DNA of 64,000 nucleotides from Schizochytrium sp. TIO01 (Eukaryota > Sar > Bigyra > Thraustochytrida > Thraustochytriidae): NCBI GenBank assembly GCA_004764695.1, contig SMSO01000006.1, positions 224,359-288,358 on the forward strand, written 5' to 3'. A model generated the notes under the pieces. The model searched no databases and was not told the origin of the DNA. It saw nothing but the letters and a program-made list of their open reading frames with translations. Of the stretch, positions 7,199 to 32,809 are shown in pieces (within the stretch, counting starts at the first letter, position 1; each line of letters opens with the position of its first letter). The position numbers and the translations under genes are program-made.

Positions 7199-9010
7199 TT
7201 AGAGCTTTGACTGGGGTTGTTTCTTCTGCTGCTCTGAGAGAATATTTTCCGTCTTGATCTTATCGCGGATGACAAGCTTGACGATTTTGCCAGTCGCACC
7301 TCGAGGAAGCTGCTCGGGCCAGTAGTAAAGGTGGGTAGGCTGCTCAAACTTGGCAAGGTCCTGACACTTGGACCGAATCTCTTCGAGCGTGGGGCGAGCA
7401 CCATTCTTGGGAAAGACTACAATACCAACCTCCTCGCCAAGAGACGGATGAGGGACAGGAATAGCCGCAACCTCTGCAACACCAGGGTGTTGGTAGACAC
7501 CATCCTCTACAGCAACGCATGAAATATTTTCACCACCACGAATGATAATCTCCTTGGTACGACCACCGAGGTGCAAAAAGCCTTCAGTATCAATCGTGCC
7601 AATGTCACCGGTGCGAAGCCAGCCATCACGAGTAATGGTATCGGCTGTTGCCTCCGGTTTGCGCCAATACTCCTTGAGGTTGGCTGCGCCCTTGACCATG
7701 ACATTGCCACGGACACCGGGGGGCACGGGCTGATCCTTCTCATCCCAAACAGCGATTTGGACACCAGGTACAGCACGCCCACAGCTAGTGGGACGCTCAA
7801 TATAGGTTGTGCCATCATTGAGTACAGTGAGAGCATTTGTCTCAGTCATTCCAAACCCTTGAATAGGAGCGGCCTTCTTAAAGTTGGATCCTACATCCTT
7901 GACCATAGTACTCGGAGGAGCAGCACCACCACCACCAACAGACTCAAGGGAGCTGGTGTCATACTTCTTGAAGTTAGGATGGTTCATCATGTCAAGAACC
8001 ATGGTGGGCACACCAGTAAAATTGGTGATCTTCTCACGCTCGATGAGCTCAAGAGCACGCTCTGGGACCCACTTGCTCATCATCACCATCTTGCGAGTGA
8101 CAAGAAACGAAAGGAAAAACACAGAGTGAAGGCCAGTGGCATGGAAGAGCGGTACATTAAGAAGAACAGCGAGATGTTTAGGGTCCTCCTCTGTCGGGGT
8201 GAACGTCTCCCCCTTTCGCTCAGCCTCGATTAACTTCTGGCGGAACGAATGGGCAGCTGCGCCGATGAGAGCATGGCAGATGCTACGGTGAGTCAAAACT
8301 ACGCCCTTGGGATGACCGGTGGTTCCCGAAGTGTACATAATGAGGGCGTTGTCGTCTTTGGTAGCAACGAAAGGAGGCATTTCCTTGCCACGATACTTGG
8401 CAATGACGTCGTTGTACATCACGAGCTTGGCGTGCGGTTTGACCTTTTCAGTCCCCGGGCCACCAAAGAGGATGACCTTTTCCACACAAGCAATTTTGTC
8501 AAGCACAGGCTCAATAAATCTGTAGCGCTCAATATCACACAGAACAACTTTACTTCCGGAGTTGTCAAGGCCGTACTCGAGTTCTTTGGTCTTCCACCAT
8601 GAGTTCATCGGCACATTCGTCGCACCAACAGAGGTGGATGCTACTACAGAGGTGACGTATTCAATGCGGTTTTTGGAGCAGACACACACACGGTCGGACT
8701 TCTTCACGCCAAACTCGTTAACAAGAGCGTACCCAAGGGCGGCAGACTCCTCGTAAGTCTCATCAAACGTGCGGCGGTCATCTTCATACACTAGGAATTC
8801 GTAGTGCGAGAGACCACGGTCCTTAGGCACCTTGAATACGTCAATGAGAGTCTGCGGTGCATTAGGGAAGACATCGTATTCGACTCCATCATGATGGGGG
8901 GCGTGTTTCTCCGGGAATGACACCACCTCTTTCTTCAACTCGAACAGAGTTCCGGGCTGGTGAATCATTGCGTCAACCTTGTTAAGGAGATCATTTGTAA
9001 GAGGCTTCAT
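7199..9010 (-). CDS. Peroxisomal acyl-CoA synthetase, array gene 1
   Basis: This 603-residue class I adenylate-forming enzyme should activate a carboxylic acid with ATP to an acyl-AMP and then form the acyl-CoA. Motifs are complete: P-loop YTSGTTGHPKG at 226-236, A4 region FHATG near 289-293, A5 GFGMTETNA near 385-393, A7 TGD at 467-469, hinge GGRTKEIIIRGGENI at 482-496, and A10 PRGATGK with catalytic Lys575. It ends in SKL, a canonical peroxisomal (PTS1) signal. The start is the first ATG at 9010, because the open frame upstream begins with GTG. It is the most downstream member of six same-strand paralogues and is closest in sequence to gene 2. The NSWWK and GGENI signatures resemble bacterial and fungal fatty-acyl or aromatic-acyl CoA ligases. 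Chain length or substrate class cannot be read from sequence alone. Confidence 0.9.
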   Translation of the reverse strand: MKPLTNDLLNKVDAMIHQPGTLFELKKEVVSFPEKHAPHHDGVEYDVFPNAPQTLIDVFKVPKDRGLSHYEFLVYEDDRRTFDETYEESAALGYALVNEFGVKKSDRVCVCSKNRIEYVTSVVASTSVGATNVPMNSWWKTKELEYGLDNSGSKVVLCDIERYRFIEPVLDKIACVEKVILFGGPGTEKVKPHAKLVMYNDVIAKYRGKEMPPFVATKDDNALIMYTSGTTGHPKGVVLTHRSICHALIGAAAHSFRQKLIEAERKGETFTPTEEDPKHLAVLLNVPLFHATGLHSVFFLSFLVTRKMVMMSKWVPERALELIEREKITNFTGVPTMVLDMMNHPNFKKYDTSSLESVGGGGAAPPSTMVKDVGSNFKKAAPIQGFGMTETNALTVLNDGTTYIERPTSCGRAVPGVQIAVWDEKDQPVPPGVRGNVMVKGAANLKEYWRKPEATADTITRDGWLRTGDIGTIDTEGFLHLGGRTKEIIIRGGENISCVAVEDGVYQHPGVAEVAAIPVPHPSLGEEVGIVVFPKNGARPTLEEIRSKCQDLAKFEQPTHLYYWPEQLPRGATGKIVKLVIRDKIKTENILSEQQKKQPQSKL

Positions 9011-9063
9011 TTTGCTCACCACGGTCTACAGACAATATCAATTACCCTCTGCCAACCTCGCGC

Positions 9064-9072
9064 CTATTTAGA
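9064..9072 (-). promoter_or_regulatory. Possible TATA-like element for array gene 1
   Basis: On the minus strand this reads TCTAAATAG, about 55 bases before the ATG at 9010. Position and composition are compatible with a TATA element, but it is a weak match and no equivalent is clearly conserved upstream of all paralogues. Confidence 0.25.
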
Positions 9073-9984
9073 TACCTTCACCTGCACGCGTGCACAATAA
9101 GCTCTCTGTCTCGAGCCTCGTATGTTGCGGTTTTGCTTTTGAGCAAGGCAGCAAGTCCAAGCTTTGGTTGATTAATTTTTTCCTAAAGTTCCTAAATTTG
9201 AAAACAAAAATAAAAATATTCTTAAACAAAATTTTATAAAGATAAATAAAAACTTTTCCTTCTTCAAAAGAAAAACATTAACTCAAATCATTGATTGAGC
9301 TCCCTCCTTCTTGCAGCCAACAGAGAGCAAGCATTGACACTCAGATCTCATCTTTAAGTAAGCTTTTGCTTTGTAATAGAGAGCATCAGACCTATGGCTT
9401 GGCAAGGTCCTAAAGCCTCCACTCCACGCACGCGAAAATGCACAGCGCCTCGGGTCTCCGATCGGGATCCAAGGGCCATTTTGCCAGTTCGCAGAGAGCT
9501 CAATTGCAGGGCCAGAATAACAAGGACTGCCGTTGCTGTGCTCTTTATGCCCTCTGCCGATGCTTCATGGCGGTGTCTAGACGAAAGAAATCAAACACGC
9601 GGTTCTGAGGTGCTTCGTTCACCCTGCAGAATCCCTTACACCCAAACAAGGTTGGTCGGGGCCTGACGAGCTTTGACCAGAACAAACTGTGCGTGGAAGC
9701 ACCCTGGCCTCGCTGGCCCTGGCCTCGCTCGCTGCGCTAGGCAACAGCCGATGGTCAACGCTTGTTTGTCTTCTGCGAGCTCTTCTTCGAGCTCTTCTTC
9801 GAGGTCGCATCAGTCAGCGGTTCTCAGCTCAGGGTTCGCCTGTGTGTCACGTTGTCTGGTATTTATTGCTCTCGGCTTGTTTACAGGTTCACAGTTCTTT
9901 CTTCCTTTCTTGCTATTATGGTCCTTTTCTCATATTCGCACCCGAACGACAGTTCGTTTGCTGTTGATCTGCATTGCTCAAGAC

Positions 9985-10026
9985 ATGAATGAATGAATGA
10001 ATGAATGAATGAATGCATGCATGGAT
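9985..10026. repeat. (TGAA)n microsatellite
   Basis: About seven copies of TGAA run into a short ATGC/ATGG tail. It is translated as Phe-Ile-His-Ser repeats in an antisense frame, which makes spurious open frames. Confidence 0.9.
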
Positions 10027-10281
10027 GAGACTGAGTTGAGGTGTGGAGGGAGAAACTGAGGAAACCCTGCAAAAGTATCGTCTGAGCGAATCTTGGCGAG
10101 AGAGAGGAGGAAGGATACCCAGGCCGGTCAGAAGGCCCCTCTGCTTCCCATGAAACACGAAACTGAGATGAGATCGAATATACTAAGGGCGTATCTTTCC
10201 ATCTGAGATCCTCGTTCTTCAAGTGAGTGTCAAACTGCAAGAAAGAGCGGCTCCTTCAAAAACAGAAAATCGAAGATCTTT

Positions 10282-10369
10282 TAAATAAAATAAAATAAAA
10301 TAAAATAAAATAAAATAAAACAAAACAAAACAAAATGAAATGAAATGAAATGAACTAAACAAACAAACA
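10282..10369. repeat. Compound pentamer microsatellite (TAAAA/CAAAA/TGAAA)
   Basis: Runs of TAAAA change to CAAAA, then to TGAAA, and end in AAAC units. Such stepwise unit changes are typical of an ageing slippage tract. Confidence 0.9.
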
Positions 10370-10682
10370 GATAACATAACATAACAGAACGAGCTACGAA
10401 CTGACTTGTATGTCCAAAGATACGCCTCCGGCGTGTCATCCATCGACCGTATGTCACTATACGGACCCACTGGCGCAGGCGATGGTGCAAAAAGCGCCTC
10501 TAATAAGTCCCAAGCAACAACCCGGCAATCGAATCATCGGTTCAAATGGCTTCTTCTTTACCAGCACAAATGAGTGAGCGGAGTTGAACGTCTTTGTGAG
10601 AAACGGAGTATAAGTCATTCTCTCTTTCATCACTTTCATAAATCTTGAAAGAAAATAATATCAAACCATCAGACAAACCAAC

Positions 10683-10773
10683 AACTAACTAACTAACTAA
10701 CCGACTGACTAACTGACTGACTGATGCACACACTAATAAACAATCTAATAAGTAAACAAACAAACAAACAAAC
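10683..10773. repeat. (AACT)n/(GACT)n and (AAAC)n microsatellites
   Basis: AACT and GACT tetramers occupy 10683-10724, and an AAAC run lies at 10754-10773. Confidence 0.85.
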
Positions 10774-11270
10774 GAATGAGCGAATGAATATGCGTACAAA
10801 TCTAAAAACACGAGGCTCCACCAATCTGCAATCCTGGGAGCATCGTCGGCCTTCAGGTTGACCAAGTTGAACGTCGCCAAACTTCATCTCAAGTCTTGAA
10901 CCTCAACGACTGCTTATCCACTTCTTCAAGGGAAGCTCTCTCCATTCCAAACCTGAGCTCCGTTCAGATTCTTCTTGTTCAACCAACCTTCCGTAAAACA
11001 TTCTTCTTTCAACGAAACGCGCAGAGGCCCTCTTAGGGCCCTCCTACGAACCACGATAGACACCCCCGCAGCCCAACAGATCGGAACGGCACCTCCATAG
11101 CACTGTCGCTTCTAAAAGTTGATTTTAAAATAAATAAAATTATCTTTATTATATTTGCACGTCATTCGCCAGTTCAGACGGTGAGTCCGACTCCTTCAGG
11201 TCGCCCTTTATGCGCTCATTCTTCTCCGATGATTTCTTTCTTCGATAGGCCCGTCATAGGGGTGCATAGA

Positions 11271-11383
11271 CATTCATTCATTCATTCATTCATTCATTCA
11301 TTCATTCATTCATTCATTCATTCATTCATTCATTCATTCATTCATTCATTCATTCATTCACTCATTCACTCATTCATTCATTC
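11271..11383. repeat. (CATT)n microsatellite, 113 bp
   Basis: An almost perfect CATT array of about 28 units, with two CACT variants near its right end. It is the longest pure tetranucleotide array in the window. Confidence 0.95.
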
Positions 11384-11666
11384 TTCTGCAGTGGTGTTCA
11401 AAGGGATCATAATATCAAAATAATGGCTCACGACATCTGATGATGAGTCAATCGTTCGTAGAATTGCGCTTCGGCTTGAGTCCTTCACGTTCTAACACTC
11501 GCTGGGTGCGCGGTCTTTGGACTGTGGCAGACGGAGGCAGCTAGCTGTGCGGAGAGGAGTGCAGTGGGAACGGAGAGAGAGCCTTTCCCACGCACTCACC
11601 TCTTCAAAATCGAAGACGCCGCATGGCCTCATATCATCATGCAATGGGTTCTCTTGGCATTTGCTC

Positions 11667-11711
11667 CAAGATTTCAAGATTTCAAGGTTTCAAGATTTCG
11701 AGGTTTTCAAG
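11667..11711. repeat. 8-bp tandem repeat (CAAGATTT)n
   Basis: About five imperfect copies of CAAGATTT with A-to-G changes (CAAGGTTT, CGAGGTTT). Confidence 0.8.
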
Positions 11712-13365
11712 CGCGCCTTTTCCAAGCGGGCTCTTCTCCGGCAGGGCCTAGCAGCCGGCTACCCAAGCGCGTACGCGTTCTTTTGCGATGGGACCGTTTC
11801 TCTCCAGCATAAAATCGCTATGGAACACCGCGACGGTCCAGAACCTAGCTACTACCTAACATGTACAGGCAAAAATCTGATCTCCCGCTTCTTCTCCCTC
11901 TGTTCCTCTATCTTCTGCTTTGATGATTAGTATTGGTTTTTAATTATAGGAAGCCCGAATGAAACATGAAAAGTTAAAAACTTGTTTTAATAAGAATAAG
12001 AATCGAAATGGTGACTACAGTACTAAAAATAGATCTGGATAGGGGCTCTTAGCAAGAAAACTAAAGCGCTCAGGTGCCAAGTACTTCGACTATTATGCTC
12101 TTTTCAGTTTCTAAGCAAGCAGCTCTTTGAGCTCGTTTCGAACTTGAAATTGAAAGGAACGCGAGCGGTGCTACCTCTGCAAAGCAAGAGCAGAGGGCTC
12201 GGACTCCAAGCTCAGCGACGTGAGCCTAAGTCGCGACGCACCATACGAAACGGAGAGCGACCGGCTTCGTTTGGTTGAGTGTGAGCTCGCATTAATATTA
12301 ATCTTGACTTCTGCCCTGAGAACTACTTAGGCATAATTAGCGGCGCTTCTAAAAGCTCACTGCACGTGAAAGGCGTAGGACCGAGGCAAAGGGCAGGACT
12401 GAGCCAGACGGTATACTAAATCTTCGATGGGTAATCTTCGATAAAGCATTGGCGCAGATGAATTAGCGTTGACACGAACTTGCACAAACGTGATCTGACG
12501 CGAAAACATGAAATCGAGGACATCTCGAGGCGCAATATTCGATGGCCTCTGCTTCCCTGTAAGTTTAAAGCATCTTCGCTGTCACTCCATCGTGGCAGTA
12601 CAGAGAGACACGGCTATCACCAGAATAGGGGTTACTCGATCAAGAGACAACTGATTGTCACGCTTGTGTCCTGTACGAAGGGCCACTTCCGGGCCAAACC
12701 GAGGCAAGACCTTCAGCTGAGCTGGGGGGGGCGTCGTCGAAGGTGTCGCGCGCTTACTGACCACGTGTATGCCACTGCCGTCGTCGATTTGTAGGTAGCT
12801 AGCTATAAGCGGGTAGCGCACTCGCTTTGATTGGATTAGATAGATAGTCCTACCTAGTTACCATTGTACGAAATGCCAGGTTTACAAGTTGAACTTCAAG
12901 TTATGAAGGGCTCTGGGTCATTCAATTCTGTCAGAAGTTGAAGCGGTCTGAAGATTGCTTTTGGGACTTTCAAGGGCTCGTGATCAGGATAACAGCTGAC
13001 AAAGGTGGGGAGCTGTGAAGAAAGGTGGTACAGGATTCCTTTGAGAATTGCTATCGGGACTAAATAGAAGATGCGGATCTCTTCATGAAAACACCGGATG
13101 AGAACTAACACCACGTAAGGATTCGAGGTGCCTAGGAAATAGATTTAGAACTACCATCTCGAGGCTCGTTTTGTTCAACTTGCTCGCAATAATATAGACA
13201 TACAAATTGGGGAGGGGGGGAGGATAATAGTAAAGTAGGAAACAACGAAAGAACAAGCCTTGCAACAGAATATATGCTTCTACATGTTGTCTAGAAACTA
13301 AAGGCCTTTGATTAGAAATTGAAAATGGAAACTAGAAGGGAAAACTTTCGGACAGATAGCTTCGG

Positions 13366-15189
13366 TTAGAGCTTAGATGGAGGAGCATGCTTCTGTTGCT
13401 CGGAAAGAAGGTTCTCGGTCTTAATGCGGTCGCGAATCTCGAGCTTCACGATTTTACCAGTGGCACCACGTGGAAGCTGTTCAGGCCAGTAGTACAGATG
13501 CGTGGGCTGCTCGAACTTTGCTAAGTGTTGGCATGAAGCACGAATATCCTCCAACGAAGGCTGAGCTCCGTCTTTTGGGTAAATCACAATCCCAACCTCT
13601 TCGCCCAAAGTTGGATGCGGAACAGGAATTGCGGCAACTTCAGCTACATCAGGATGCAAATAAGCACCATTCTCTACAACAACGCAAGAAATGTTTTCCC
13701 CTCCGCGGATGATGATTTCTTTGGTACGGCCGCCTAAATGCAAAAATCCCTCCTCGTCAAGAGTACCAATGTCTCCAGTATGAAGCCAACCATCTCGTGT
13801 CACTGTATCTGTCGTGGCTTCCGGCTTGCGCCAATACTCTTTGAGGTTTCCAGCACCGCGAATCATGACGTTACCTCGAACCCCGGGGGGTACGGGCTGA
13901 TGATTGTTATCCCAGATGGCAACCTGTACACCGGGCACGGGCCTTCCACAGCTTGATGTGCGCTCTTTATATGTCTCACCGTCATTGAGAACAGTCAATG
14001 CGTTGGTTTCGGTCATGCCATATCCTTGTACAGGATTAGTCTTCAGAAAGTGGCGATCAATATCAGCGACCATTGTGCTGGGCGGTGCTGCACCTCCACC
14101 ACCTGCAGCTTCTAAGGAGCTTGTGTCGTACTTTTTGAAGTTTGGGTGAAACATCATATCCAAGACCATCGTAGGGACACCAATAAAGTTTGTAATCCTC
14201 TCGCGCTCAATCAGCTGTAGAGCTTCTTCCGGGACCCACTTGCTCATGATCACCATCCGACGAATGTAAACAAAGCAAAGTAAAAATACAAGGTGCAATC
14301 CTGTGGCGTGGAAGAAGGGCACGTTCAAAAGGACACCCAGGCGTTTGGGGTCCTCTTCAACAGGCACATACTCCTCGCCCCGACGAGCTGCCTCAAGCAT
14401 CTTTTGCCGTGCGTTATGGGCCTGAGCACCAAACAATGCATGACAAATGCCTCGATGAGTCAAAACCACACCTTTGGGATGGCCTGTAGTGCCAGAGGTG
14501 TACATGATTAACGCATTATCATCAGGACGCGCCGATGATTCAGGCATGTCTTTTCCTCGATACTTGGCGATAACCTCATTGTATTTCAGAAGCTTAGGAT
14601 GGGGTTGCACTGTGTCGATGCCTGGGCCATTGAACAAGATGATCTTCTCCAGGTCAGGCAGCTTGTCAATAATAGGCAGAATGAGTTCATAACGCTCCAC
14701 ATCACAGAAAATAATTTTGCTTTGGGAATTCTCCATGCCATATTCGAGCTCGCTTGTCTTCCACCACGAGTTCATTGGAACGCACACTCCACCGATTGCG
14801 GTGCTCCCAATCACAGTGATTGCATATTCATTGCGGTTCTTCGCACAAATGCAAACACGATCCCCCCGTTCAATACCAAACTCGTTAGTAAGAGCATAAC
14901 CAAGCGCAGAGGCTTCTCTCATGGTCTCTTCAAAAGTGAGGCGTTCTTTTTCGAACACCAAAAACTCGTAGTGCGAGTAGCCCCGGGTTTTCGGAATATT
15001 GTAAACGTCCACCAAGGTGCGAAAGCCATTGACAAAAACATCAACATCTATACCGTCATGATGCGGGGCGTGCTTCTCTTCGAAAACGATGCGCTCCTTT
15101 TTCAACTCAAAGGGTGACCCCGGAGCAAAGAGCTGCGCATCAACTTCACGCAGAATCTCTTTCGTGATGGGCGCTGGAGCTCGTGGCAT
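13366..15189 (-). CDS. Peroxisomal acyl-CoA synthetase, array gene 2
   Basis: This 607-residue paralogue of gene 1 keeps the same alignment with a 4-residue longer N-terminus. P-loop YTSGTTGHPKG lies at about 230-240, the A5 motif is GYGMTETNA, the hinge is GGRTKEIIIRGGENI and the catalytic lysine is Lys579. It ends in SKL. The open frame starts directly at ATG 15189, so the start needs no change. Shared features with gene 1 include EEDPK in the variable linker, VRGNVM after A5, LNDG after TETNA, and the C-terminal YYWPEQLPRGATGK. Differences cluster in the linker, in the hydrophobic segment after FHATG (residues 294-312, probably lining the acyl pocket) and in the last ten residues. It is predicted to be peroxisomal and catalytically intact, with unknown substrate. 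Confidence 0.9.
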   Translation of the reverse strand: MPRAPAPITKEILREVDAQLFAPGSPFELKKERIVFEEKHAPHHDGIDVDVFVNGFRTLVDVYNIPKTRGYSHYEFLVFEKERLTFEETMREASALGYALTNEFGIERGDRVCICAKNRNEYAITVIGSTAIGGVCVPMNSWWKTSELEYGMENSQSKIIFCDVERYELILPIIDKLPDLEKIILFNGPGIDTVQPHPKLLKYNEVIAKYRGKDMPESSARPDDNALIMYTSGTTGHPKGVVLTHRGICHALFGAQAHNARQKMLEAARRGEEYVPVEEDPKRLGVLLNVPFFHATGLHLVFLLCFVYIRRMVIMSKWVPEEALQLIERERITNFIGVPTMVLDMMFHPNFKKYDTSSLEAAGGGGAAPPSTMVADIDRHFLKTNPVQGYGMTETNALTVLNDGETYKERTSSCGRPVPGVQVAIWDNNHQPVPPGVRGNVMIRGAGNLKEYWRKPEATTDTVTRDGWLHTGDIGTLDEEGFLHLGGRTKEIIIRGGENISCVVVENGAYLHPDVAEVAAIPVPHPTLGEEVGIVIYPKDGAQPSLEDIRASCQHLAKFEQPTHLYYWPEQLPRGATGKIVKLEIRDRIKTENLLSEQQKHAPPSKL

Positions 15190-17465: not shown

Positions 17466-19277
17466 TTAAAGCTTCGAGCGCGGTTGCTGCTTCTGCTGTT
17501 CGGATAAAATATTTTGTGTCTTGATTGCCTCGCGAATCTCGAGTTTCACAATCTTGCCAGTAGCACCTCGTGGAAGTTGCTCAGGCCAGATATACAAGTG
17601 CGTGGGCCGCTGAAATTTGGCTAGGTCGTCGCAGTATTGATGAATTTCTTCGAGAGAAACCTTGCCTCCGTGCTTGGGAAAGACAACTATACCAACCTCC
17701 TCGCCAAGTGTAGGGTGGGGCACAGGAATTGCGGCAACCTCTGCAACGTTGGGGTGTTTGTATACACCATCCTCCACAGCAACACAAGAAATGTTCTCAC
17801 CGCCGCGAATGATGATTTCCTTGCTGCGTCCACCAAGGTGAAGATAACCATCCTCGTCAAGGTGACCCACATCTCCAGTTCTTAGCCAGCCATCAGCAGT
17901 GATAGTGTCAGCCGTAGCTTCCGGCTTGCGCCAGTACTCTTTCATAACAGAGGCTCCTTTAATCATTACGCTGCCCTTTTCGTATGCCCGTACGGGCTTA
18001 TCGTTCTCGTCCCAAATTGCTATTTCCATGCTTGGCACAGCTCGTCCACAGCTGGTAGGTTTCGCACGGTATGCTGCGCCGTCATTGAGAGCAGCAATGG
18101 CGTTTGTCTCGGTCATGCCAAAACCTTGACCGGCAGATGCCTTCTTAAACTTCTTGCCGACGTCGTCCACCATGGTACTCGGTGGAGCTGCACCACCGCC
18201 GGCAACGTTTTGTAATGTGCTAGTGTCATATTTCGCGAAGTTGGGATGGTTCATCATATCGAGTACCATCGTAGGCACGCCTGTAAAGTGCGTGATTTTC
18301 TCCCGCTCGATAAGCTCTAATGCACGTTCCGGTTCCCACTTGCTCACCATGACAATTTTGCGACAAGCAAATATGGAAATCAAGCAAACTACATGCAAGC
18401 CTGTAGCATGAAAAAGTGGGACTGTCAACAAAATTGCCGGGGCCGATGCATCCTTGGCATTTTTCTTTTTCTTGTCACCGGAGCTGGACTTGTTACTACC
18501 CTGAGTTCCTGTACTAAGGGCTTTTGTGTATGCAGAATGTGCAACAGCGGCGATAATTGCGTGGCAAATGCTTCGATGTGTCATCACGACACCTTTGGGG
18601 TGTCCCGTAGTTCCAGACGTGTACATGATCATTGCATTGTCATCCTTGCCCGCGGTGAATGGAGGCATAGGCTGCCCGTGAAACTTTGCAACTACCTCAT
18701 TATAGAGGGACATTTTTGCATGAGGGCGCGCCTTTTCTGAACCAGGGCCATCCAAGAGCAGGACATTAGTGAGGCTAGGGACTTGGTCCAAGATAGGCTC
18801 GGCAAATTCATACCTCTCAGCATCACAGATCAAGACTTTGGTACCTGAGTTATCCAGGCCGTACTGCAGTTCTTTCGATTTCCACCACGAGTTCATGGGT
18901 ACAAAGACGGCACCAATTGATGTAGAGGCAATCAAGGTTACGACATACTCAATGCGGTTCTTGGACAGCGCGCACACGCGGTCTCCCTTTTGTACGCCGC
19001 AAGTCTTGACGAGAGCTTGACCAAGAGCCGCTGCCTCATCGAAAACCTGCTGAAAGGTCCTGCGTTCATCCTCGTAAACGAGGAATTCCTTTTGAGCTAC
19101 ACCCTTTTTCGTGGGAATCGCGAACAGGTCTACAAGAGTCTGCGGACCATTCGGAAATACCTTGTGCTTAACGCCGTGGTGGTGCGGTGCGTGCTTGTCA
19201 GGAAACTCAATCACCTCTTCCGCGATCTCCAGCAGCGAACCCGGTGCAAAAACCTTTTGCGCAACTGCGTCGTCCAT
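17466..19277 (-). CDS. Peroxisomal acyl-CoA synthetase, array gene 3
   Basis: This 603-residue adenylate-forming enzyme has its P-loop at about 219-229, A5 GFGMTETNA, A7 GDV, hinge GGRSKEIIIRGGENI and catalytic Lys575, and it ends in SKL. The open frame runs 14 codons further upstream but begins with TTG. The first ATG (19277) gives MDDAVAQKVFAPG, which aligns with the other members. The linker between the P-loop and the A4 motif is unusual: a serine, glycine and lysine-rich stretch of about 30 residues (KSSSGDKKKKNAKDAS inside it), unlike the acidic linkers of genes 1 and 2. Its closest relative is gene 4: both share LQYGL, HQYCxDLAKFQRPTHLYIW and IREAIK near the C-terminus. Substrate unknown. 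Confidence 0.9.
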   Translation of the reverse strand: MDDAVAQKVFAPGSLLEIAEEVIEFPDKHAPHHHGVKHKVFPNGPQTLVDLFAIPTKKGVAQKEFLVYEDERRTFQQVFDEAAALGQALVKTCGVQKGDRVCALSKNRIEYVVTLIASTSIGAVFVPMNSWWKSKELQYGLDNSGTKVLICDAERYEFAEPILDQVPSLTNVLLLDGPGSEKARPHAKMSLYNEVVAKFHGQPMPPFTAGKDDNAMIMYTSGTTGHPKGVVMTHRSICHAIIAAVAHSAYTKALSTGTQGSNKSSSGDKKKKNAKDASAPAILLTVPLFHATGLHVVCLISIFACRKIVMVSKWEPERALELIEREKITHFTGVPTMVLDMMNHPNFAKYDTSTLQNVAGGGAAPPSTMVDDVGKKFKKASAGQGFGMTETNAIAALNDGAAYRAKPTSCGRAVPSMEIAIWDENDKPVRAYEKGSVMIKGASVMKEYWRKPEATADTITADGWLRTGDVGHLDEDGYLHLGGRSKEIIIRGGENISCVAVEDGVYKHPNVAEVAAIPVPHPTLGEEVGIVVFPKHGGKVSLEEIHQYCDDLAKFQRPTHLYIWPEQLPRGATGKIVKLEIREAIKTQNILSEQQKQQPRSKL

Positions 19278-21395: not shown

Positions 21396-23189
21396 TTAGA
21401 GCTTGGACTTCATTAACTTCTGCTGCTCCGAGAGAAGCTTTTGGGACTTGATTGCCTCGCGAATCTCTAGTTTCACAATCTTGCCAGTAGCACCACGTGG
21501 AAGTTGCTCAGGCCAGATGTACAAGTGCGTGGGTCGCTGGAACTTGGCTAGATCGTTACAGTATTGGTGGATTTCTTCAAGGGTTACTTTGCCACCGTGC
21601 TCCGGAAAGACAACTACGCCTACTTCCTCGCCAAGAGTAGGGTGGGGTACAGGAATAGCAACAACCTCAGCAACATTAGGGTGTTTATGGACAGCATCCT
21701 CAACCGAAACACAAGAAATGTTCTCACCGCCGCGAATAATGATTTCCTTGCTTCGCCCTCCAAGGTGCAGGAAACCGTCATCATCAAGGTGGCCAATATC
21801 GCCCGTATCAAGCCAACCATCTGCCGTAACGGTTTTAGCTGTAGCCTCAGGGTTCTGCCAGTACTCCTTCATGAGTGACGCAGCTTTGAACATGACATTA
21901 CCCTTGACATTTGGTGGAACAGGTCTGTTCTGGTCATCCCATACGGCAATTTCAATCGTGGGCGCTGCTCGGCCACAGCTTGTTCTCTTTGCACGGTAAG
22001 CAAGCCCGCCATTCAGAGTTCCAATGGCATTCATCTCAGTCATACCATATCCTTGGCCCGCAGAGGCATTCTTGAAGTGCTTATCGATGTCGTCAACTAA
22101 AGTTGATGGAGATGCAGAACCACCGCCAATAAGAGACTGAAGGGAGCTAGTGTCATACTTTGTGAAGTTCGGATGACGCATCATATCGAGCACCATGGTG
22201 GGTACTCCAGTAAAATTTGTAATTTTTTCACTTTCAATAAGCTGCAGTGCATGCTCAGGGTCCCACTTGCTGACCATGACAATCTTACGGCAAGCAACAA
22301 TTGAAAGTAAACATACTGCATGGAGTCCAGTAACATGAAAAAGCGGTACAGTGAGTAAAACAGCTGGCTCGGCAGTGCTCACAGTAGCTGGGGCCCCAGC
22401 ATTTGCTGCAGTGAGCGCTTGGCTGAGAGTGAAGAAAGCCATGCCGGCATTGAGAGCGTGGGAGACTCCACGGTGCGTCAAAACAACGCCCTTTGGGTGA
22501 CCCGTGGTTCCAGAAGTATACATTATCATTGCGTTGTCGTCCTTATCACACGGGAATGGAGGCATGCTTTCTCCGTGGAATTGGGCAATGACTTCATCGT
22601 AAGCTGACAATTTGGAATGCGGACGGATTTCATCAAAGCCCTCGTCGCGAAGGAGGAGAATGTGGTTGAGGCTCGGAACCTCGGCAATGATCGGCTCCAC
22701 CAATTTATACCGGTCCACATCGCAAATTAGAACTTTGGAACCAGAGTTCTCGAGCCCGTACTGAAGGTCCCTTGACTTCCACCAGGAGTTCATCGGGACA
22801 AAGACAGCACCTATTGAAGTTGCAGCAATGAGCGAAACGACATACTCAATACGATTTTTAGAGAGGGCGCAGACGCGGTCACCTTTTTTCACTCCATACT
22901 TTTGTACAAGTGCTTGGGCAAGCGCGGCTGCTTCATCATAAGTCTGCTGAAAGGTCCTTCGCTCATTTCCCCAAACCAAAAACTCCTTCTGCATTGCATT
23001 CATTTTCTTGGGCATTTCATACAAATCCACCATTGTTTGCAATCCGTTTGGGAAAACCTTGTATTTGACACCTTGATGATGTGGGGCATGATTATCAGGG
23101 TATGAAACCACTTCCTCCCTGATCTCAAACATTGTGCCAGGGGCAAATAGCTTCCGGGCAATAGCTTCCTCCATCTCGCTTTTCGTCAT
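21396..23189 (-). CDS. Peroxisomal acyl-CoA synthetase, array gene 4
   Basis: This 597-residue paralogue is closest to gene 3. The P-loop YTSGTTGHPKG is at about 224-234, the hinge is GGRSKEIIIRGGENI, the catalytic lysine is Lys570 and the end is SKL. It departs from its sisters at several otherwise constant sites. A5 reads GYGMTEMNA (Met for Thr), the preceding glycine-rich strand reads IGGGSASPST where others have GGGAAPPST, and A7 is preceded by WLDTGD where most have WLRTGD. These could shift substrate or nucleotide handling. The frame is open for 35 codons upstream but begins with GTG. The ATG at 23189 gives MTKSEMEEAIARKLFAPG, which aligns with gene 3. The linker is alanine and threonine-rich and short. 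Confidence 0.9.
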   Translation of the reverse strand: MTKSEMEEAIARKLFAPGTMFEIREEVVSYPDNHAPHHQGVKYKVFPNGLQTMVDLYEMPKKMNAMQKEFLVWGNERRTFQQTYDEAAALAQALVQKYGVKKGDRVCALSKNRIEYVVSLIAATSIGAVFVPMNSWWKSRDLQYGLENSGSKVLICDVDRYKLVEPIIAEVPSLNHILLLRDEGFDEIRPHSKLSAYDEVIAQFHGESMPPFPCDKDDNAMIMYTSGTTGHPKGVVLTHRGVSHALNAGMAFFTLSQALTAANAGAPATVSTAEPAVLLTVPLFHVTGLHAVCLLSIVACRKIVMVSKWDPEHALQLIESEKITNFTGVPTMVLDMMRHPNFTKYDTSSLQSLIGGGSASPSTLVDDIDKHFKNASAGQGYGMTEMNAIGTLNGGLAYRAKRTSCGRAAPTIEIAVWDDQNRPVPPNVKGNVMFKAASLMKEYWQNPEATAKTVTADGWLDTGDIGHLDDDGFLHLGGRSKEIIIRGGENISCVSVEDAVHKHPNVAEVVAIPVPHPTLGEEVGVVVFPEHGGKVTLEEIHQYCNDLAKFQRPTHLYIWPEQLPRGATGKIVKLEIREAIKSQKLLSEQQKLMKSKL

Positions 23190-25389: not shown

Positions 25390-27189
25390 TTAGAGCTTGG
25401 AGACTGGAACGGCCTCATCGCGAATCTTGCCATCCTTGATATCTGCAAGGATAGTGCGCTTGTGGATCTTTCCAGTGTCACCACGGGGCAGCTGCTCAGG
25501 CCAAATGTACAGATGCGTAGGCATCTCGTAGCGAGCAAGATCGCCACATATCTTACGGATGCTCTCCAATGACGGGCGAGCGTTACCCTTGGTGAAGACT
25601 GCAATGCCAACCTCCTCACCAAGCGTGGGGTGGGGTACAGGAATCGCCGCAACCTCAGCAATCTCAGGGTGCTGGTACACGGCGTTCTCGACCACGACAC
25701 AAGAGATGTTCTCACCACCGCGAATAATAATCTCCTTGCTTCGGCCGCGAAGGTGAAGGTATCCTTCCTCGTCAATCACACCAACATCACCGGTGCGAAA
25801 CCATCCGTCCGCAGTAATGTTCTTCGCAGTGGCCTCAAGGTTGTTCCAGTACTCCTTTAACATGAGCGCGCCACGAATGACGAGCTCGCCCTCCTCGTTG
25901 GTAGGCACAGGCTTGTCATTAGCATCCCAAATGGCAATCTCGGTTGTTGGGACAGCCTTGCCACAACTGGAAGGCTTTCTGCGATAAAGATCTCCTTCGT
26001 TCAGAGTCGCAATGCCGTTTGTCTCAGTCATACCCCAGGCCTGAAGCGGGGATGCTCCCTTGAAGTTGCGGTCGACTTCACCAACCATGGTGCTGGGCGG
26101 CGCAGCGCCGCCGCCGCCGACTGAAACAAGCGTGCTAGTGTCATACTTCTTAAAATTCGGGTGGCTCATCATGTCGAGAACCATTGTGGGCACACCTGTA
26201 AAGTTGGTGCATTTTTCCGTCTCGATGAGCTGCAGGGCGTGCTCGGGGTCCCATTTGCTCATGATAACAATCTTACGGCAACTCAGAATGGACAAAAGGC
26301 AAACGCAATGGTGTCCTGTCACGTGAAAGAGAGGCACTGCGAGCAAAAAGGCCGTCTTGGACGGATCAAGAGGAGGGTCGAGCGCCTTGCCGGTCTTGGC
26401 TGCAGCAAGGTTTTTCTCGTAAGCCATGGCTGAAGCAGCGGCAGTGAGATTATGGGCAATACTGCGATGGGTGAGAACGACACCTTTGGGGTGGCCTGTG
26501 GTACCGGAGGTATACATAATCATGGCATTGTCGTCTTTGCCGACGCTAACAACCGGCATGGCCGCACCCTGGTGCTTACGGACTGCATCATCAAAGAAGA
26601 CCACCTTTGGATGAGGCTTAAATTTGTCAGCACCAGGTCCACTAAGAAGCAAAACGTGCTTGAGGCTGGTCAACTTATCGAGAATAGGTTCGAGACTTTT
26701 GTATCGGTCAGCGTCACAGACGACGACCTTGGCGCCAGAGTTTTCCACGCCATACTCGAGCTCTTTGGTCTTCCAATACGAGTTCATAGGCACCGACACA
26801 CCTCCAACAGAGGTTGAGCCGATGAGTGCTACAAGGTACTCGTTGCGGTTCTTAGAGAGTGTAATAACACGGTCTCCCTTTTGCAGACCAAAGTCCTTCA
26901 CAAGTGCAGAGCCGAGTGCTGCTGAGAGGTCGTAGGTCTCCTGAAAGGTGAGCCGGCTGGTTTCATCCACAAGGAAATCAAGCTTCATTGCTCCATTGGC
27001 CACCGGGACCTTGTAAATGTCAAGGAGTGTTTGAGGTCCGTTTGGGAACACCTCATACTTGACACCCTTGAAATGGGCGGACTCTCCTTCATATGAGATC
27101 ACCTCCTCGCGAACCTCAAAAGGAGTTCCCGGCGCAAACACCTGGTCCCAGACCTTTTTCTCCAGGCCGCTCGTGGGTTTCTTGGTCAT
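25390..27189 (-). CDS. Peroxisomal acyl-CoA synthetase, array gene 5
   Basis: This 599-residue member is more divergent. The P-loop YTSGTTGHPKG lies at about 226-236, A7 TGD and hinge GRSKEIIIRGGENI are present, and A10 reads PRGDTGK with catalytic Lys574. It ends in VSKL, so the PTS1 is kept although the preceding tail (KIRDEAVP) differs fully from the SEQQK tail of genes 1-4. A5 reads AWGMTETNG, with Trp where others have Phe or Tyr, and the A4 region is HVTGHH. It has NSYWK where genes 1-4 have NSWWK, a feature shared with gene 6. The first ATG is at 27189, since the six codons upstream begin with GTG. Its codons use C/G at third positions more than those of genes 2 and 4. Substrate probably differs from genes 1-4, an inference from pocket residues. 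Confidence 0.9.
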   Translation of the reverse strand: MTKKPTSGLEKKVWDQVFAPGTPFEVREEVISYEGESAHFKGVKYEVFPNGPQTLLDIYKVPVANGAMKLDFLVDETSRLTFQETYDLSAALGSALVKDFGLQKGDRVITLSKNRNEYLVALIGSTSVGGVSVPMNSYWKTKELEYGVENSGAKVVVCDADRYKSLEPILDKLTSLKHVLLLSGPGADKFKPHPKVVFFDDAVRKHQGAAMPVVSVGKDDNAMIMYTSGTTGHPKGVVLTHRSIAHNLTAAASAMAYEKNLAAAKTGKALDPPLDPSKTAFLLAVPLFHVTGHHCVCLLSILSCRKIVIMSKWDPEHALQLIETEKCTNFTGVPTMVLDMMSHPNFKKYDTSTLVSVGGGGAAPPSTMVGEVDRNFKGASPLQAWGMTETNGIATLNEGDLYRRKPSSCGKAVPTTEIAIWDANDKPVPTNEEGELVIRGALMLKEYWNNLEATAKNITADGWFRTGDVGVIDEEGYLHLRGRSKEIIIRGGENISCVVVENAVYQHPEIAEVAAIPVPHPTLGEEVGIAVFTKGNARPSLESIRKICGDLARYEMPTHLYIWPEQLPRGDTGKIHKRTILADIKDGKIRDEAVPVSKL

Positions 27190-27793
27190 TTTCCCTGTAC
27201 TGTGCACAGGCAGGCTTCTTCACCGCAACTTTGCCAACTCGTGCCTTCTTCGCGATGATTCGGATTTGCTTTCGGTTGCCGATGCCAAACTCCGCAACCT
27301 TCGCTTCCTATGTTTGACACATCTTCTCCGCTTTACAGTCTTGAGTACTTAATTGCAGTAATAGCACTTCTACTAGGACCAGCCCACTTTACTTTCTTTT
27401 TTTGTATGCCGCTAAAAGAAAGGTGGCTGAGATGCTGAGCACTAGGTACTATCTAGTCACCATCGCTCCAAATCATTGTAAAAAACTGACTTCGTGAAGG
27501 CGAGGTAAGTACTTACCGAATCGTCTCCTTCATGTATGTCACGTTTAAGTTGGTTTCTGTTGCCTTTCGTCGGATTTGCACTGGAACTGTTTGTAAGAAA
27601 TGATGTACATTCTCAAGCACTATGCCTTGAAACATCTACTTGAAGGGAGACAGGAATCAAACAATGCTCGCCCAGGCTTCACGGGGAAGTAAAACGTCAA
27701 TCAAGAGCCGAGGCCGTTCGCCTGATAATATGGAATCAATCCTCCAAGGTCAATCGAATCAATCCTCTTCGAAGACGTCCACGTTGAACTTGA

Positions 27794-27831
27794 AGAAAAG
27801 AAAAGAAAAGAAAAGAACAAGAAGAAGAAGA
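27794..27831. repeat. (AAAAG)n and (AAG)n microsatellites
   Basis: AAAAG units are followed after a few bases by AAG units. Confidence 0.85.
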
Positions 27832-28544
27832 TGTACTTTCCGCTCTCCTATCTTCTCAGTCCTTCCCTGTTTTCCTCCCTTCCAAATCAAGTCCGCCTTA
27901 ATTAACAGTATCGAAGTCTCTTTAGAGACCCTAAATTAAGGTCACCCATTGACAGATGAGGATTTGGATCGCTGTCAACACCGCCTCTTTGATCCTTATA
28001 ATTAACAATAGATGAGGGCTAGTATTGCAGTCTCCTCTTGCCCGAATAATATCATATCTTCTTCTTTCATATTTTTTTTTAATTAAATAAAAATCTTCTT
28101 TTCCTTCCTTTTTTTTTGGTTCAAACGAATCACAGAAAAGAAGCTCTCTTTCACAGATTCACATTCTCCCGTTCACGATCGCCATGGTGCCTCTGGAGCT
28201 CGAGCTCTTCGACGACAGCCATCCATCGCGGCTCATGGCTCGCGAAACAGCTCACAAGCGCTGCTCAGGCGCCCCTGGCGCATCAGACGACTTTCCCCTA
28301 CTGCGTGCTAACTGCTCTTGTGAAGTGGCTTTTGCTCTTTTGACTGTCTGTTCTCTCAACACTGTGACCTCAGACAGCGCCCGCCTGCACCTTCGCAGAC
28401 GATGCCGTGGTCGCCCCGCGCCTCTTCACTGGAGCAGCTTTCCGGCAGAAGCCGCGTGCGTCTTCTCCTCGAGCTCGACTGGCGGCCGACCGTCGCGGCT
28501 GTCGCCTTCGCTTGAGCCATCTTCGATTCCGCTTATGTCCACGC

Positions 28545-28669
28545 AAATCCAACCCAACTCCAACTCCAAACCCAAACCCAAATTCAAATCCAAATTCAAA
28601 TTCAAATTCAAATTCAAATTCAAATTCAAACCCAAATTCAAATTCAAATTCAAACTCAAACTATTTCAA
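28545..28669. repeat. Hexamer array (CAAATT/CAAACC/CAACTC)n
   Basis: About twenty imperfect hexamers, changing from CAACTC through CAAACC to CAAATT. A shorter relative of the same hexamer lies at 41792-41818. It is translated as Asn-Ser or Lys-Phe repeats in spurious frames. Confidence 0.9.
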
Positions 28670-28701
28670 AATATCATATTCAAAATCATGAAACTTGAAA
28701 G

Positions 28702-28722
28702 AAAAAAAAAAAAAAAAAAAAA
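28702..28722. repeat. Poly(A) run, 21 bases
   Basis: A pure A tract lies just after the hexamer array. No target-site duplication or coding remnant beside it supports a retroposed copy. Confidence 0.85.
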
Positions 28723-29265
28723 GCAAAGAAAAGAAAAAACACTATCCACGCAACGCTCACATCACACACAGAATTCACAATGCCGGCGATCCACCCTCCC
28801 GCCATAGCGGCCAGAAGCTTCTTCGCCTGCCTCCCTGCCTCCTGCCTACCTACTCCTCTCCACCTTCAAGCTTGAACTCAACCAGCCTCGAGCCCAATCA
28901 AGCGTGAACTCCTCAAAAAACGTCGATCCCATTCAAAAACTCCTCTGCATTCTTCGCATCCCAGTTCCGATCGTGGCGGCTCCAGCCCATGCCCTCCTAG
29001 CCTTTATCCTAGCGCACCCAGCGCACCCCCCCCCCTCCTCCTGGCGATGCTAAGATACGGGGCAAAGAATACCGGACACGGGGTAGCGCGAGCCAAAGCC
29101 GCAGCTGGATTGGCGAGGAAGCTTCAAGTCCGCAATGGGTTCTTGGGGCTCAACCAGGCGGGCGCTGGCGGCGGCGCGGAGAGGGCCGCGCAAGAGGGAA
29201 GAGGCAAGACGCAGGACGCAAGGCGGAAGGGCGATGGCAGCGAGAGCAGGCTCGATGGAAGGAAG

Positions 29266-29286
29266 GAATGAATGAATGAATGAATG
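29266..29286. repeat. (GAAT)n microsatellite
   Basis: About five GAAT units. GCTT/GCCT units follow further right near 29485-29512. Confidence 0.85.
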
Positions 29287-30982
29287 CACAGAGCTGCCGT
29301 GGAACTGGAGGTTCTTGTGCGTCATCAGGCGCAGCGGCCGCCCTGATAGGCGTAACGGTAGGAGAGCCTACTCTGCGCTCGAAGAACCGAGGGACCGCTG
29401 CCGCAGACGTTCAGCTGGAGAGCGCCCATTGGCCTGCGGTCTCTCTCGCCGCGCTCGCTTGCGTGCCGCCAGGCAGAACCTGATTGCTTGCCTGCTTGCC
29501 TGCCTGCTTGCTGGGTTTCGTGCTGCAGTTTGAACCAAGAGTTCGGCGGGCTCTCGAAATGGCAGGCTCTCGATCCTTCAAGTTGGGCACCTTGATCTTT
29601 CTTGATCTCAGATCTGCAGCCCACTTTCCAATCCTTCGTAGACAAGTCGCGGCAACTGCTCGTCCGAAACTGGTGCGGCCTGTCACCAAATGTGTGGTCG
29701 TGCTGCAACTCTAGAGGTAGACATCTGAGATGGGAAGTAGCAAGAGCACTCGTTGCAGCGAGCGAGTAAGGCAGCAGCTTCGAGCAAGAGCGGAGAAGAG
29801 GCGAGCGCGGCTGGCGACCTCGAGCCCCTCCTCCTGGCGTTGTTGTTCGAGATTCCTCATGATCTCCAGGTGTGGTTCAAGTTGCCAGCTACAGAGGCCA
29901 TGAATCGTACTCTCAGCAAGCGCGCACCTACTAGTAGTGCTTAGTAGTAAGGCGGCAGGCTCACGAGGTACTCTTGAGATCTGACCGCCCTGTGCTCCTC
30001 CCTGCTGAGCGGATCTGTCGACGCTTTCGATGGCTGTTTGAGAAGCGGTTTTCTGAACATTCATGGTCAACTATTCAACTCGTCGATCGATCAATGGATC
30101 AGTCCTGTAACTGATACGCTGAACTCGAACGGTGTGGATCGTATCGCAGGACTTGGATCGCAGTTGAGCATGATCAAGGATCATGATTGAGAATGTTTGT
30201 GTGATTATTCTTGTCGATAATTCAAGGAGGCCCATCGTCCCAAACCTATGAAGTTAGTTCGGCCTGGCTGCAGCTGAGAGCATCTCTGGTGAGACTGGCA
30301 GATATTATGCAGTTGGGCTATGGGCTAGGTTAGCCAGGTAGAAAAGATCCGTAATGTTCTACGCAGACTCTTTGAGTAGGAAGAACGTACTGGCGGACTC
30401 AGCAAAAGTATCAACAAATCGGTTCCAGAGGCGAGCACAGATTTTGACATGACGGGAACTCCATCTTCCTTTTCATCAGCAACAACATGTCCCAAAATAT
30501 CTGATGAGAGGCTCTCGCGCCGGCAGGGTTATCAGACTGCCTAAAGCTTCCGAAGTTTTCAAGATATACTTTGCTTCTGTAGAAAGTAACCAAGCAAGAG
30601 GCCGAAGCTTTCTGGTAGAGGAGGAGGTAAGGCCCTTCGTGTGAGTACATCTTGACATTGTAGAGAGGGTGCAGGTAATGGGAGTAGGCAGAAGAAATAT
30701 GTGTGTGCGCTCATTCATGGTGATTGTGCGCAGTTTACTTGGCAATTCACATTGAGAAGCCCAGAGGTGCAGTTAGCACAAGTCCAGATTGCCTCTAGAG
30801 AGGAGCAAACAGAAGAGCGGAGAATCATATAGACCATGAAAGTCATTATTAAGATGTGCCACGGCATACTATTTTATAACAACAAATCCTCCAATGGTAT
30901 ACACTCTTCTAATGTAAAAAAAAAAAAAAGAGAACTCTCTGGTGTAAAATATAACTAGTATATAAGGCCTACGAAGATGTGA

Positions 30983-32809
30983 CTAGAGCTTAGAAGGTAA
31001 TCCTTGCTTTACCTGCTCTGAGCGAATTTCGCCCTTCTCGATTGACTCAATAATCCCGCGTTTGAAAATCTTACCAGTAGCGCCACGCGGGAGTTGGTCG
31101 GGCCAGATGAAGAGATGAGTTGGGTGTTCGAATTTTGCAAGATCTACACATTTAGTGAGTAGCTCTTCAAGAGTGACTTTGGCGTTTGGCTTCGGCCAGA
31201 CAACAATGCCTACCTCCTCACCAAGCGTAGGATGTGGCACAGGAATGGCCGCAGCCTCGCCTACACTAGGGTGCTCATAAATGGCATTCTCCACAGCTAC
31301 ACAGGATATATTCTCTCCGCCTCTGATGATAATCTCTTTGCTGCGACCTCCAAGATGTAAGTAGCCATCTTCATCAAGAAGCCCAACGTCTCCAGTACGT
31401 AGCCAGCCGTCAGGCGTGATTGCTTTGGCAGTGGCCTCCGGATTGCCCCAGTACTCCTTGAGCACCGAAGCCGCCTTCACCATCAAATTACCCTTTACTC
31501 CGGACGGTACTTTGTTGTCCTGATCGTCCCAAATTTCGTAATAAAGACCTGGGATAGAACTACCGCAGCTTGTAGGTTTCAGCTTATAGAGTTCGCCCAT
31601 TGTAGCCCCTGTCACTCCACTCGTTTCGGTCATTCCAAATCCTTGCAGGGGAGCTGCTTTCTTAAAGTTAGAGCCCACATCGCGAACCATAGTCGTTGGA
31701 GGAGCTGCACCTCCTCCACCGACTGTGCCGAGAGAGCTGGTGTCATACTTATGAAAGTTGGGGTGTGCCATCATGTCAAGTACCATGGTAGGTACACCAG
31801 AGAAGCTTGAGATCCTCTCCCGCTCAATGATCTGCAGAGCACGTTCAGGGTCCCACTTGCTCATAAGGACGATCTTGCGTGATGCTACAATCGAAATGAA
31901 GCAAACGGCAAGAAGCCCAGTTACATGAAAAAGTGGGACATTCAGAAGGGTGGCAGAGGCAGCTGGGTCAGCTGGCGAAGCGTTTTGCTCAGGAACTGTA
32001 CCTTCTAATATATCTGAGACGGCCTTGTTAATCATTCCTTTGGCAACAGTACCAACCAAGGCATGGGTCACAGAGCGATGCGTTAAGACTACACCCTTCG
32101 GGTGGCCTGTGGTTCCCGATGTATACATGATGATAGCGTTATCATCCTTGTCAGCTGTGAACGGAGGCATCTCCTCCCCCATACGATTGGCTACAACCGT
32201 ATTGTATGTAGTGAGCTTTGGGTGCGGCTTGGCACCCTCCACTCCGGGACCGTCACATAGGAGTACTTTGTGTAGCATTTGCAGCTCATCTAGGATGGGC
32301 TCAACATCACGGTATCGCTCAACGTCGCAAATGAGGACCTTGGTTCCGGAGTTGTTGAGACCATAGAGGAGTTCTTTCGTCTTCCAGTACGAGTTCATCG
32401 GTACGTAGACGGCTCCAATGGAGGTGATGGCAATGAATGAAATCAAGTACTCAATACGATTCTTGGACAACATGCAGACGCGGTCACCATTTTGAACATT
32501 GAAGTCTTTTACAAGAGCTTGACCAAGAGCGGCTGCCTCAGCAAAGGCTTGAGCAAACGTCAGTCTGCGGTCTTCAAAAATCAAAAACTCGTTCTTTTGT
32601 ACGCCCTGGCTTAGGGGAATGTTGAAAACGTCTCGGAGAGTCTGAGGACCCTTGGGAAATACTGGGACACGAATTCCTTTGTGATGTGGAGCAGACCCAT
32701 TCTTGTGGACGATTGTCTCTTCTCCAAGCTCAAACATTGTCCCCGGAGCACACACCTTTTTAGTAATTTCATCTTCTAGCTGCTTGAGCTTGGATACTGC
32801 ATGAGGCAT
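30983..32809 (-). CDS. Peroxisomal acyl-CoA synthetase, array gene 6
   Basis: This 608-residue member is the most upstream in transcription direction. The P-loop is at about 229-239, A5 is GFGMTETSG, A7 GDV, hinge GGRSKEIIIRGGENI, and A10 PRGATGK with Lys580, and it ends in PSKL. After A5 the sequence (VTGATMGELY) lacks the LN-x-G present in genes 1-5, and the next strand reads YYEIWDD. These are its clearest departures. It shares NSYWK and the IEKGEIR/IKDGKIR-type tail with gene 5. The frame is open 23 codons upstream but begins with TTG. The ATG at 32809 gives MPHAVSKLKQ and aligns with the family. An internal SKL at residues 6-8 is not terminal and has no targeting meaning. A small tandem repeat abuts the start codon. 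Confidence 0.9.
   Translation of the reverse strand: MPHAVSKLKQLEDEITKKVCAPGTMFELGEETIVHKNGSAPHHKGIRVPVFPKGPQTLRDVFNIPLSQGVQKNEFLIFEDRRLTFAQAFAEAAALGQALVKDFNVQNGDRVCMLSKNRIEYLISFIAITSIGAVYVPMNSYWKTKELLYGLNNSGTKVLICDVERYRDVEPILDELQMLHKVLLCDGPGVEGAKPHPKLTTYNTVVANRMGEEMPPFTADKDDNAIIMYTSGTTGHPKGVVLTHRSVTHALVGTVAKGMINKAVSDILEGTVPEQNASPADPAASATLLNVPLFHVTGLLAVCFISIVASRKIVLMSKWDPERALQIIERERISSFSGVPTMVLDMMAHPNFHKYDTSSLGTVGGGGAAPPTTMVRDVGSNFKKAAPLQGFGMTETSGVTGATMGELYKLKPTSCGSSIPGLYYEIWDDQDNKVPSGVKGNLMVKAASVLKEYWGNPEATAKAITPDGWLRTGDVGLLDEDGYLHLGGRSKEIIIRGGENISCVAVENAIYEHPSVGEAAAIPVPHPTLGEEVGIVVWPKPNAKVTLEELLTKCVDLAKFEHPTHLFIWPDQLPRGATGKIFKRGIIESIEKGEIRSEQVKQGLPSKL

Follow-up and report, generated by a model that had tools for sequence, protein, structure and literature searches.

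A tandem array of six acyl-CoA synthetase genes ending in SKL in Schizochytrium sp. TIO01, probably supplying peroxisomal β-oxidation

Why would a thraustochytrid keep six acyl-coenzyme A (acyl-CoA) synthetase genes side by side, all of them ending in the same three amino acids? The question is raised by a 64,000-nt window of Schizochytrium sp. TIO01 (contig SMSO01000006.1, positions 224,359 to 288,358, from a eukaryotic assembly of 64.06 Mb in 37 contigs), in which six full-length AMP-binding acyl-CoA synthetase genes, here called A1-A6, lie on the minus strand between positions 7199 and 32809, all with open frames. With the first ATG of each frame taken as the start, these paralogues are A1 (7199-9010, 603 amino acids, ending KKQPQSKL), A2 (13366-15189, 607 amino acids, KHAPPSKL), A3 (17466-19277, 603 amino acids, KQQPRSKL), A4 (21396-23189, 597 amino acids, QKLMKSKL), A5 (25390-27189, 599 amino acids, DEAVPVSKL) and A6 (30983-32809, 608 amino acids, KQGLPSKL). 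The reading that we favour, and consider probable on the sequence evidence, is that the six genes arose by tandem duplication long ago and encode acyl-CoA synthetases of the peroxisomal matrix, which would supply peroxisomal β-oxidation.

What class of enzyme do the six genes encode? All six proteins match the Pfam domains AMP-binding and AMP-binding_C above their cut-offs, and the adenylation motifs A3, A4, A5, A7, A8 and A10 are kept in every copy, including the lysine of motif A10, in agreement with the original prediction, which had described a full motif set in each copy. The strings YTSGTTGHPKG, FH.TG, GMTE, TGD, the A8 hinge and PRG.TGK are present in 6/6, the pattern for motif A5 having been written to admit the AWGMTE of copy A5; this variant is unique to that copy, the other five carrying G[FY]GMTE. 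By catalytic class, A1-A6 can safely be assigned from their sequences to the AMP-forming acyl-CoA synthetases (ANL superfamily), each of which would use ATP to adenylate a free carboxylic acid before passing the acyl group to CoA. The relatives with solved structures, as judged by sequence, include FadD13 and the feruloyl-CoA, malonyl-CoA and 4-coumarate ligases, luciferases being only distant matches.

The C-terminal tripeptide SKL, present in 6/6, conforms to the consensus of the peroxisomal targeting signal type 1 (PTS1), [SAC][KRH][LM]. It had been predicted that all six copies end in SKL with differing residues before it, and this holds with the refinement that the tails have not wholly drifted, LSEQQK being common to A1-A4. 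Three conserved end residues are not striking by themselves, because 227 of the 616 columns in the alignment of the six are invariant anyway; by column counting, the probability that the invariant columns of the tail include all three final ones is 0.030 for a tail of 30 columns, 0.009 for 20, 0.007 for 16 and 0.014 for 13. The serine of SKL is encoded by TCA, TCT, TCG, TCC, TCC and TCT in A1 to A6, the lysine by AAG in all six and the leucine by CTC, once by CTT. Of the 61 frames of bacterial family members, none has a PTS1-like end (L041, and perhaps others, is interrupted before its terminus); this count omits only ten duplicates that had been re-cut from loci in the set, and the 14 bacterial relatives aligned with A1-A6 end before the SKL-bearing extension. 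Elsewhere in the genome, the C-terminus can be read in 18 of 19 other AMP-binding loci (L070 runs off, the ends of L059 and L065 were taken from the frame without the P-loop, and introns could hide true ends); exact SKL occurs in none of the 18, and four carry a looser PTS1, namely AKL in L055 and ARL in L056, L057 and L066. As judged from these reading frames, exact SKL marks the array among the AMP-binding loci read in this genome, with a looser PTS1 on a few others.

Is there a destination for such proteins in this organism? Matches to Pex2_Pex12 above cut-off are found at three places in the genome and in 0 of 14 control genomes, and on these matches the host is credited with peroxisomal import machinery; acyl-CoA oxidase gives four matches at three places. 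Taken together, they indicate that the peroxisomal destination and the next enzyme are probably present. In another stramenopile, Nannochloropsis, a reporter tagged with SKL marks peroxisomes (PMC7710942). Selection for peroxisome import of all six copies, as originally proposed, is supported by sequence, since SKL has been kept with differing serine codons despite saturated synonymous sites in 14 of 15 pairs of copies, bacterial relatives lack a PTS1-like end, and the Pex2/Pex12-type and acyl-CoA oxidase matches occur in the same genome. The simplest history would be that the ancestor of the array already had SKL and that all six copies retained it.

The array is old. Protein identity between copies is 56.1-72.0%, and in Nei-Gojobori (NG86) comparisons the proportion of synonymous differences (pS) is 0.73-0.83 in all 15 pairs, with synonymous divergence (dS) saturated in 14 of them and the proportion of nonsynonymous differences (pN) at 0.16-0.31; pS far above pN in every pair indicates purifying selection on all copies. 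An assembly artefact or collapsed haplotypes can be rejected on these pS values, mis-assembled repeats of one gene being impossible because the copies are so divergent, and recent gene conversion was likewise discarded, as whole-gene comparison gave no pair with low synonymous divergence. A tree was built from 66 rows (the six array copies, 57 bacterial sequences and three outgroups from the same genome), leaving out 14 of the 71 bacterial rows above 340 bits, i.e. ten re-cut copies, the interrupted L041 and L043 and the near-copies L019 and L026. Among the bacterial and own-genome rows sampled, A1-A6 form one clade (100/100) containing the neighbour pairs A1/A2 (100/100) and A3/A4 (100/98); support is weaker, at 96/79, where the six connect with 37 bacterial rows, and the three own-genome outgroups sit on very long branches (3.5 to 5.5). 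No close member of the subfamily was found elsewhere in the genome, the next match having 32% identity over half the length. The six genes are adjacent, monophyletic among these rows and alike in carrying a PTS1, and in this sense form a tandem peroxisomal acyl-CoA synthetase cluster.

Within both pairs the rates are unequal. The terminal branch of A2 measures 0.38 against 0.11 for A1, and that of A4 0.30 against 0.13 for A3. Tajima relative-rate tests gave p = 2e-5, 0.095, 0.022 and 0.006 for A1/A2 with A3, A4, A5 and A6 as outgroups, and p = 4e-5, 0.116, 0.054 and 0.0016 for A3/A4 with A1, A2, A5 and A6, so that A2 is faster than A1 at p<0.05 with three of four outgroups and A4 faster than A3 with two of four.

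Are there other genes, or dead copies, between the six? Successive genes are spaced 2.1-4.4 kb apart, and the original description of six intact same-strand paralogues with no other recognisable gene between them stands, given the open frames and the content of the gaps. The one gap ORF (open reading frame) scanned against Pfam, at 28184-28807, has no match; a tblastn search of the window with A1-A6 as queries, their own ORFs being masked, revealed no relic copy in the gaps, its sole match (E 0.58) lying outside the array; and a codon-usage scan, rough because it was trained on nine ORFs of the same window, placed no strong coding segment in the gaps among its top 60 segments, the highest-scoring gap segment (29065-29331, score 22.3) being one of several weak segments between 28.1 and 29.9 kb. 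Further genes or dead copies in the gaps were rejected on these grounds. The A5-A6 gap contains a GC-rich stretch (28100-29950) in which both strands give a weak coding signal and an AAATTC-type repeat run occurs, and the A1-A2 gap has ATGA/CATT tetranucleotide arrays at 9985-10028 and 11271-11390, in opposite orientation and about 1.2 kb apart.

What, then, would such an array do? In the reading that we favour, each protein would be imported into the peroxisome through its C-terminal PTS1, and the acyl-CoAs that it forms would enter peroxisomal β-oxidation through acyl-CoA oxidase. Duplication of neighbours would have produced the pairs A1/A2 and A3/A4, in each of which one copy (A1, A3) may have stayed slower while the other (A2, A4) diverged faster; the unequal rates within pairs fit divergence in substrate range or expression, and we infer a division of labour among the copies. 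Plain fatty-acid activation for β-oxidation, with divergence among copies, is a better default than a specialised supply of acyl-CoAs.

Several findings weigh against peroxisomal β-oxidation supply or limit how far it can be taken. The best two NCBIfam models, the general long-chain-fatty-acid--CoA ligase PRK06187 (372-407 bits, cut-off 476 bits) and the steroid-24-oyl-CoA synthetase CasG (NF052580; 371-407 bits, cut-off 750 bits), score nearly equally and fall below cut-off in 6/6; the sequence family does not fix the substrate. The substrate pocket was located solely through motif offsets, as eight columns placed by 4CL2 numbering, which is a weak mapping. The window ORFs scanned included no recognisable β-oxidation gene next to the array, and none occurs among the ten neighbours of a close bacterial relative, L047, three of which have no Pfam match. 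A flank scan of the wider family took in 20 ORFs, one or two per locus, and covered 16 of the 24 loci from L085 to L108. At 12 of the 16 no acyl-CoA dehydrogenase was among these ORFs, which were short-chain dehydrogenases, aldo-keto reductases, unrelated genes or ORFs without a Pfam match. The eukaryotic comparison, finally, is confined to this genome. At the other four loci of the flank scan (L090, L097, L099 and L100) acyl-CoA dehydrogenase genes adjoin the ligase, on both sides of it in L099 and L100, which weakly points to β-oxidation-type catabolism.

Of the alternatives, the one that survives best is that the copies are near-redundant fatty-acid activators with the same substrates, kept for amount or for expression in different life stages. 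We regard this as possible, if somewhat unlikely. It would suit the unchanged catalytic motifs and the pocket columns, which are no hot spot of change, averaging 2.13 distinct residues in the eight columns against 2.17 protein-wide, and zoospores of Aurantiochytrium limacinum are reported to have more peroxisomal β-oxidation than its vegetative cells (PMC12221091). However, identity down to 56-72%, unequal rates within pairs and the lack of any pair with low dS would be unusual for pure dosage. Nor does the GC content at third codon positions (GC3) suggest very high expression, being 0.49-0.60 in A1-A6 when two other window ORFs have 0.76-0.77 and a third has 0.57; the window as a whole has a GC content of about 46%.

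The original prediction went further and saw in the array a dedicated, specialised supply of acyl-CoAs. This step goes beyond the sequence evidence, as the window ORFs scanned revealed no pathway genes adjoining the array, the upstream regions have no common 8- to 10-mers, the pocket columns tested vary no more than the rest of the protein, and ordinary fatty-acid activation for β-oxidation accounts for the array equally well. The upstream test, which is a weak one, compared stretches of 700 bases and found no 8-, 9- or 10-mer shared by at least five of the six, and one common 7-mer, the same as in shuffles. The specialised explanation would have each copy activate its own non-fatty, bulky or ring-bearing acid, e.g. 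sterol-side-chain or cyclic acids from marine detritus, in place of ordinary fatty acids, and we consider this unlikely. CasG does align over nearly its whole model in 6/6, the N-terminal part included, and among the NCBIfam models it ranks first for A6, narrowly first for A4, and first or second for all six; its cut-off, however, is far off, and the general long-chain model scores equally. At L099 and L100 one flanking dehydrogenase best matches the pimeloyl-CoA dehydrogenase small subunit (also IpdE2) and the other acryloyl-CoA reductase, all below NCBIfam cut-offs, but ring-degradation genes were not recognised among the window ORFs scanned. One pocket position, which we take to be equivalent to S243 of 4CL2, reads S, L, V, A, C and A in A1 to A6, against the background of eight columns that together are no more variable than the protein.

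An extension of the same idea, which we hold to be very doubtful, is that a bacterial-type acid-CoA ligase akin to steroid-acid ligases was recruited, acquired SKL and expanded into six peroxisomal specificities for bulky (sterol-like or cyclic) acids; if true, it would mean a peroxisomal breakdown route for such acids that we have not seen described for labyrinthulomycetes. The best-scoring bacterial matches come from marine Gammaproteobacteria (Pseudohongiella, OM182 and others, among L013-L050), with 37-40% identity to A3 over the best segment; unlike the array, these synthetases have no PTS1-like end and there is usually one strong match per genome. The bacterial scan used two peptide patterns and was not a full survey. 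A single match stood far above the rest in 10 of 11 genomes re-searched, the exception being G007 (Gordonia), and when sampling was widened to 398 genomes, 37 had a match at E <=1e-95, 14 of them with two (three candidates were scored per genome). Among viral sequences, none of 14 pattern matches encodes a relative.

Least likely of all, indeed highly improbable, is that one or more copies use the acyl-adenylate for another peroxisomal reaction, for which the faster evolution of A2 and A4, the AWGMTE of A5 in place of G[FY]GMTE and the precedent of a tandem peroxisomal acyl-CoA synthetase turned firefly luciferase (PMC6191289) could be adduced, against the catalytic motifs, A10 lysine included, that are kept in 6/6 and the lack of anything indicating another reaction.

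Two features of the alignment and of the bacterial loci may be noted here. A1-A6 have an N-terminal insert of about 10 residues around residues 25-40 (alignment columns 50-60), containing APHH in five of six copies and absent from the 14 aligned bacterial relatives. In 36 of 37 loci of marine Gammaproteobacteria (among L013-L050) the synthetase is immediately preceded, on its own strand, by a gene for a PIG3-like zinc-type oxidoreductase; these upstream genes are 75-90% identical to that of L047, which served as the query and is counted in the 36. Oxidoreductase and synthetase (L047:6887-9623 and 35 other loci) apparently form a fixed two-gene unit, the neighbour pointing to no particular pathway.

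How does the array compare with known systems? Tandem peroxisomal acyl-CoA synthetases (PACS) adjoin luciferase in fireflies, and the PACS clusters of fireflies and click beetles resemble A1-A6 in consisting of tandem AMP-binding acyl-CoA synthetase duplicates, with members carrying a C-terminal PTS1 and one diverging in place (PMC6191289). In the beetle clusters, however, some neighbours lack a PTS1 and one became luciferase (PMC6191289), whereas the array keeps exact SKL in 6/6. The likeness is one of arrangement only, and descent from PACS is not claimed. Closer in lineage is the thraustochytrid A. limacinum, for which three putative acyl-CoA synthetases with C-terminal SKL have been reported and assigned by the authors to peroxisomal fatty-acid activation (PMC8534400); three genes are named there and the word "tandem" is absent from the main text, so that the comparison is by description only. 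In tomato, members of the superfamily also stand in tandem groups, as A1-A6 do. OPCL1 has tandem neighbours in Arabidopsis. It is a 4CL-like acyl-activating enzyme (At1g20510) named as peroxisomal (PMC8674732). Enzymes of this kind are peroxisomal, as A1-A6 are predicted to be, and adenylate-forming, and the OPCL1 type activates specialised acids; it differs in belonging to a plant 4CL-like clade, and the likeness is again by description. Our searches of the open-licence literature of PubMed Central (PMC) brought up no paper describing the six-gene array, and nothing on such genes was seen in PMC8546548. As a duplication affecting peroxisomal acid metabolism the array is clear-cut, but it has precedents in fireflies (tandem and PTS1-bearing) and in Aurantiochytrium (ending in SKL).

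Thraustochytrids are industrial sources of docosahexaenoic acid. Their peroxisomal fatty-acid breakdown affects oil content, and in A. limacinum peroxisomal ATP import has been linked to oil content (PMC8534400). An old, intact array of six SKL-bearing genes offers a defined knock-out target, whose loss might cut oil turnover or reveal unusual acids used by detritus-feeding protists, and, beyond beetles and plants, a case in which to study the division of labour among duplicates of peroxisomal acyl-CoA synthetases.

Beside the array lies a gene for an ATP-grasp protein of 501 amino acids (34443-35948, minus strand), antisense to which runs an open frame of 504 amino acids (34527-36041, plus strand) without a Pfam match, probably reflecting the high GC3 (0.77) of the ATP-grasp gene. 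A dihydrolipoyl dehydrogenase gene (58324-59886, plus strand), above the TIGR01350 cut-off, is similarly accompanied by an antisense frame of 563 amino acids without a Pfam match (region 58204-59895). Elsewhere in the genome, L056 (C20) and L057 (C4) are near-identical AMP-binding genes of 634 amino acids ending in ARL, on contigs of 31.8 kb and 1.9 Mb, and are perhaps an unmerged haplotype. L070 (G000:C24:3814000-3823999) belongs to an open frame of 4400 codons, the fetched part of which has three adenylation-type P-loop motifs and resembles a nonribosomal peptide synthetase. The site of the labyrinthulomycete 18S primer LABY-A occurs four times in the assembly, its reversed control never; one of the four loci, L072, has full-length 18S and 5.8S genes followed by the beginning of the 28S gene. 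A second primer site, LABY-Y, was not found in L072 at up to one mismatch, which speaks against a labyrinthulomycete unless the primer fails to match this genus; on balance the host is taken for a labyrinthulomycete, probably a thraustochytrid. Two FabA-type dehydratase domains share one open frame of 1647 codons, an arrangement seen in the thraustochytrid polyunsaturated fatty acid synthase.

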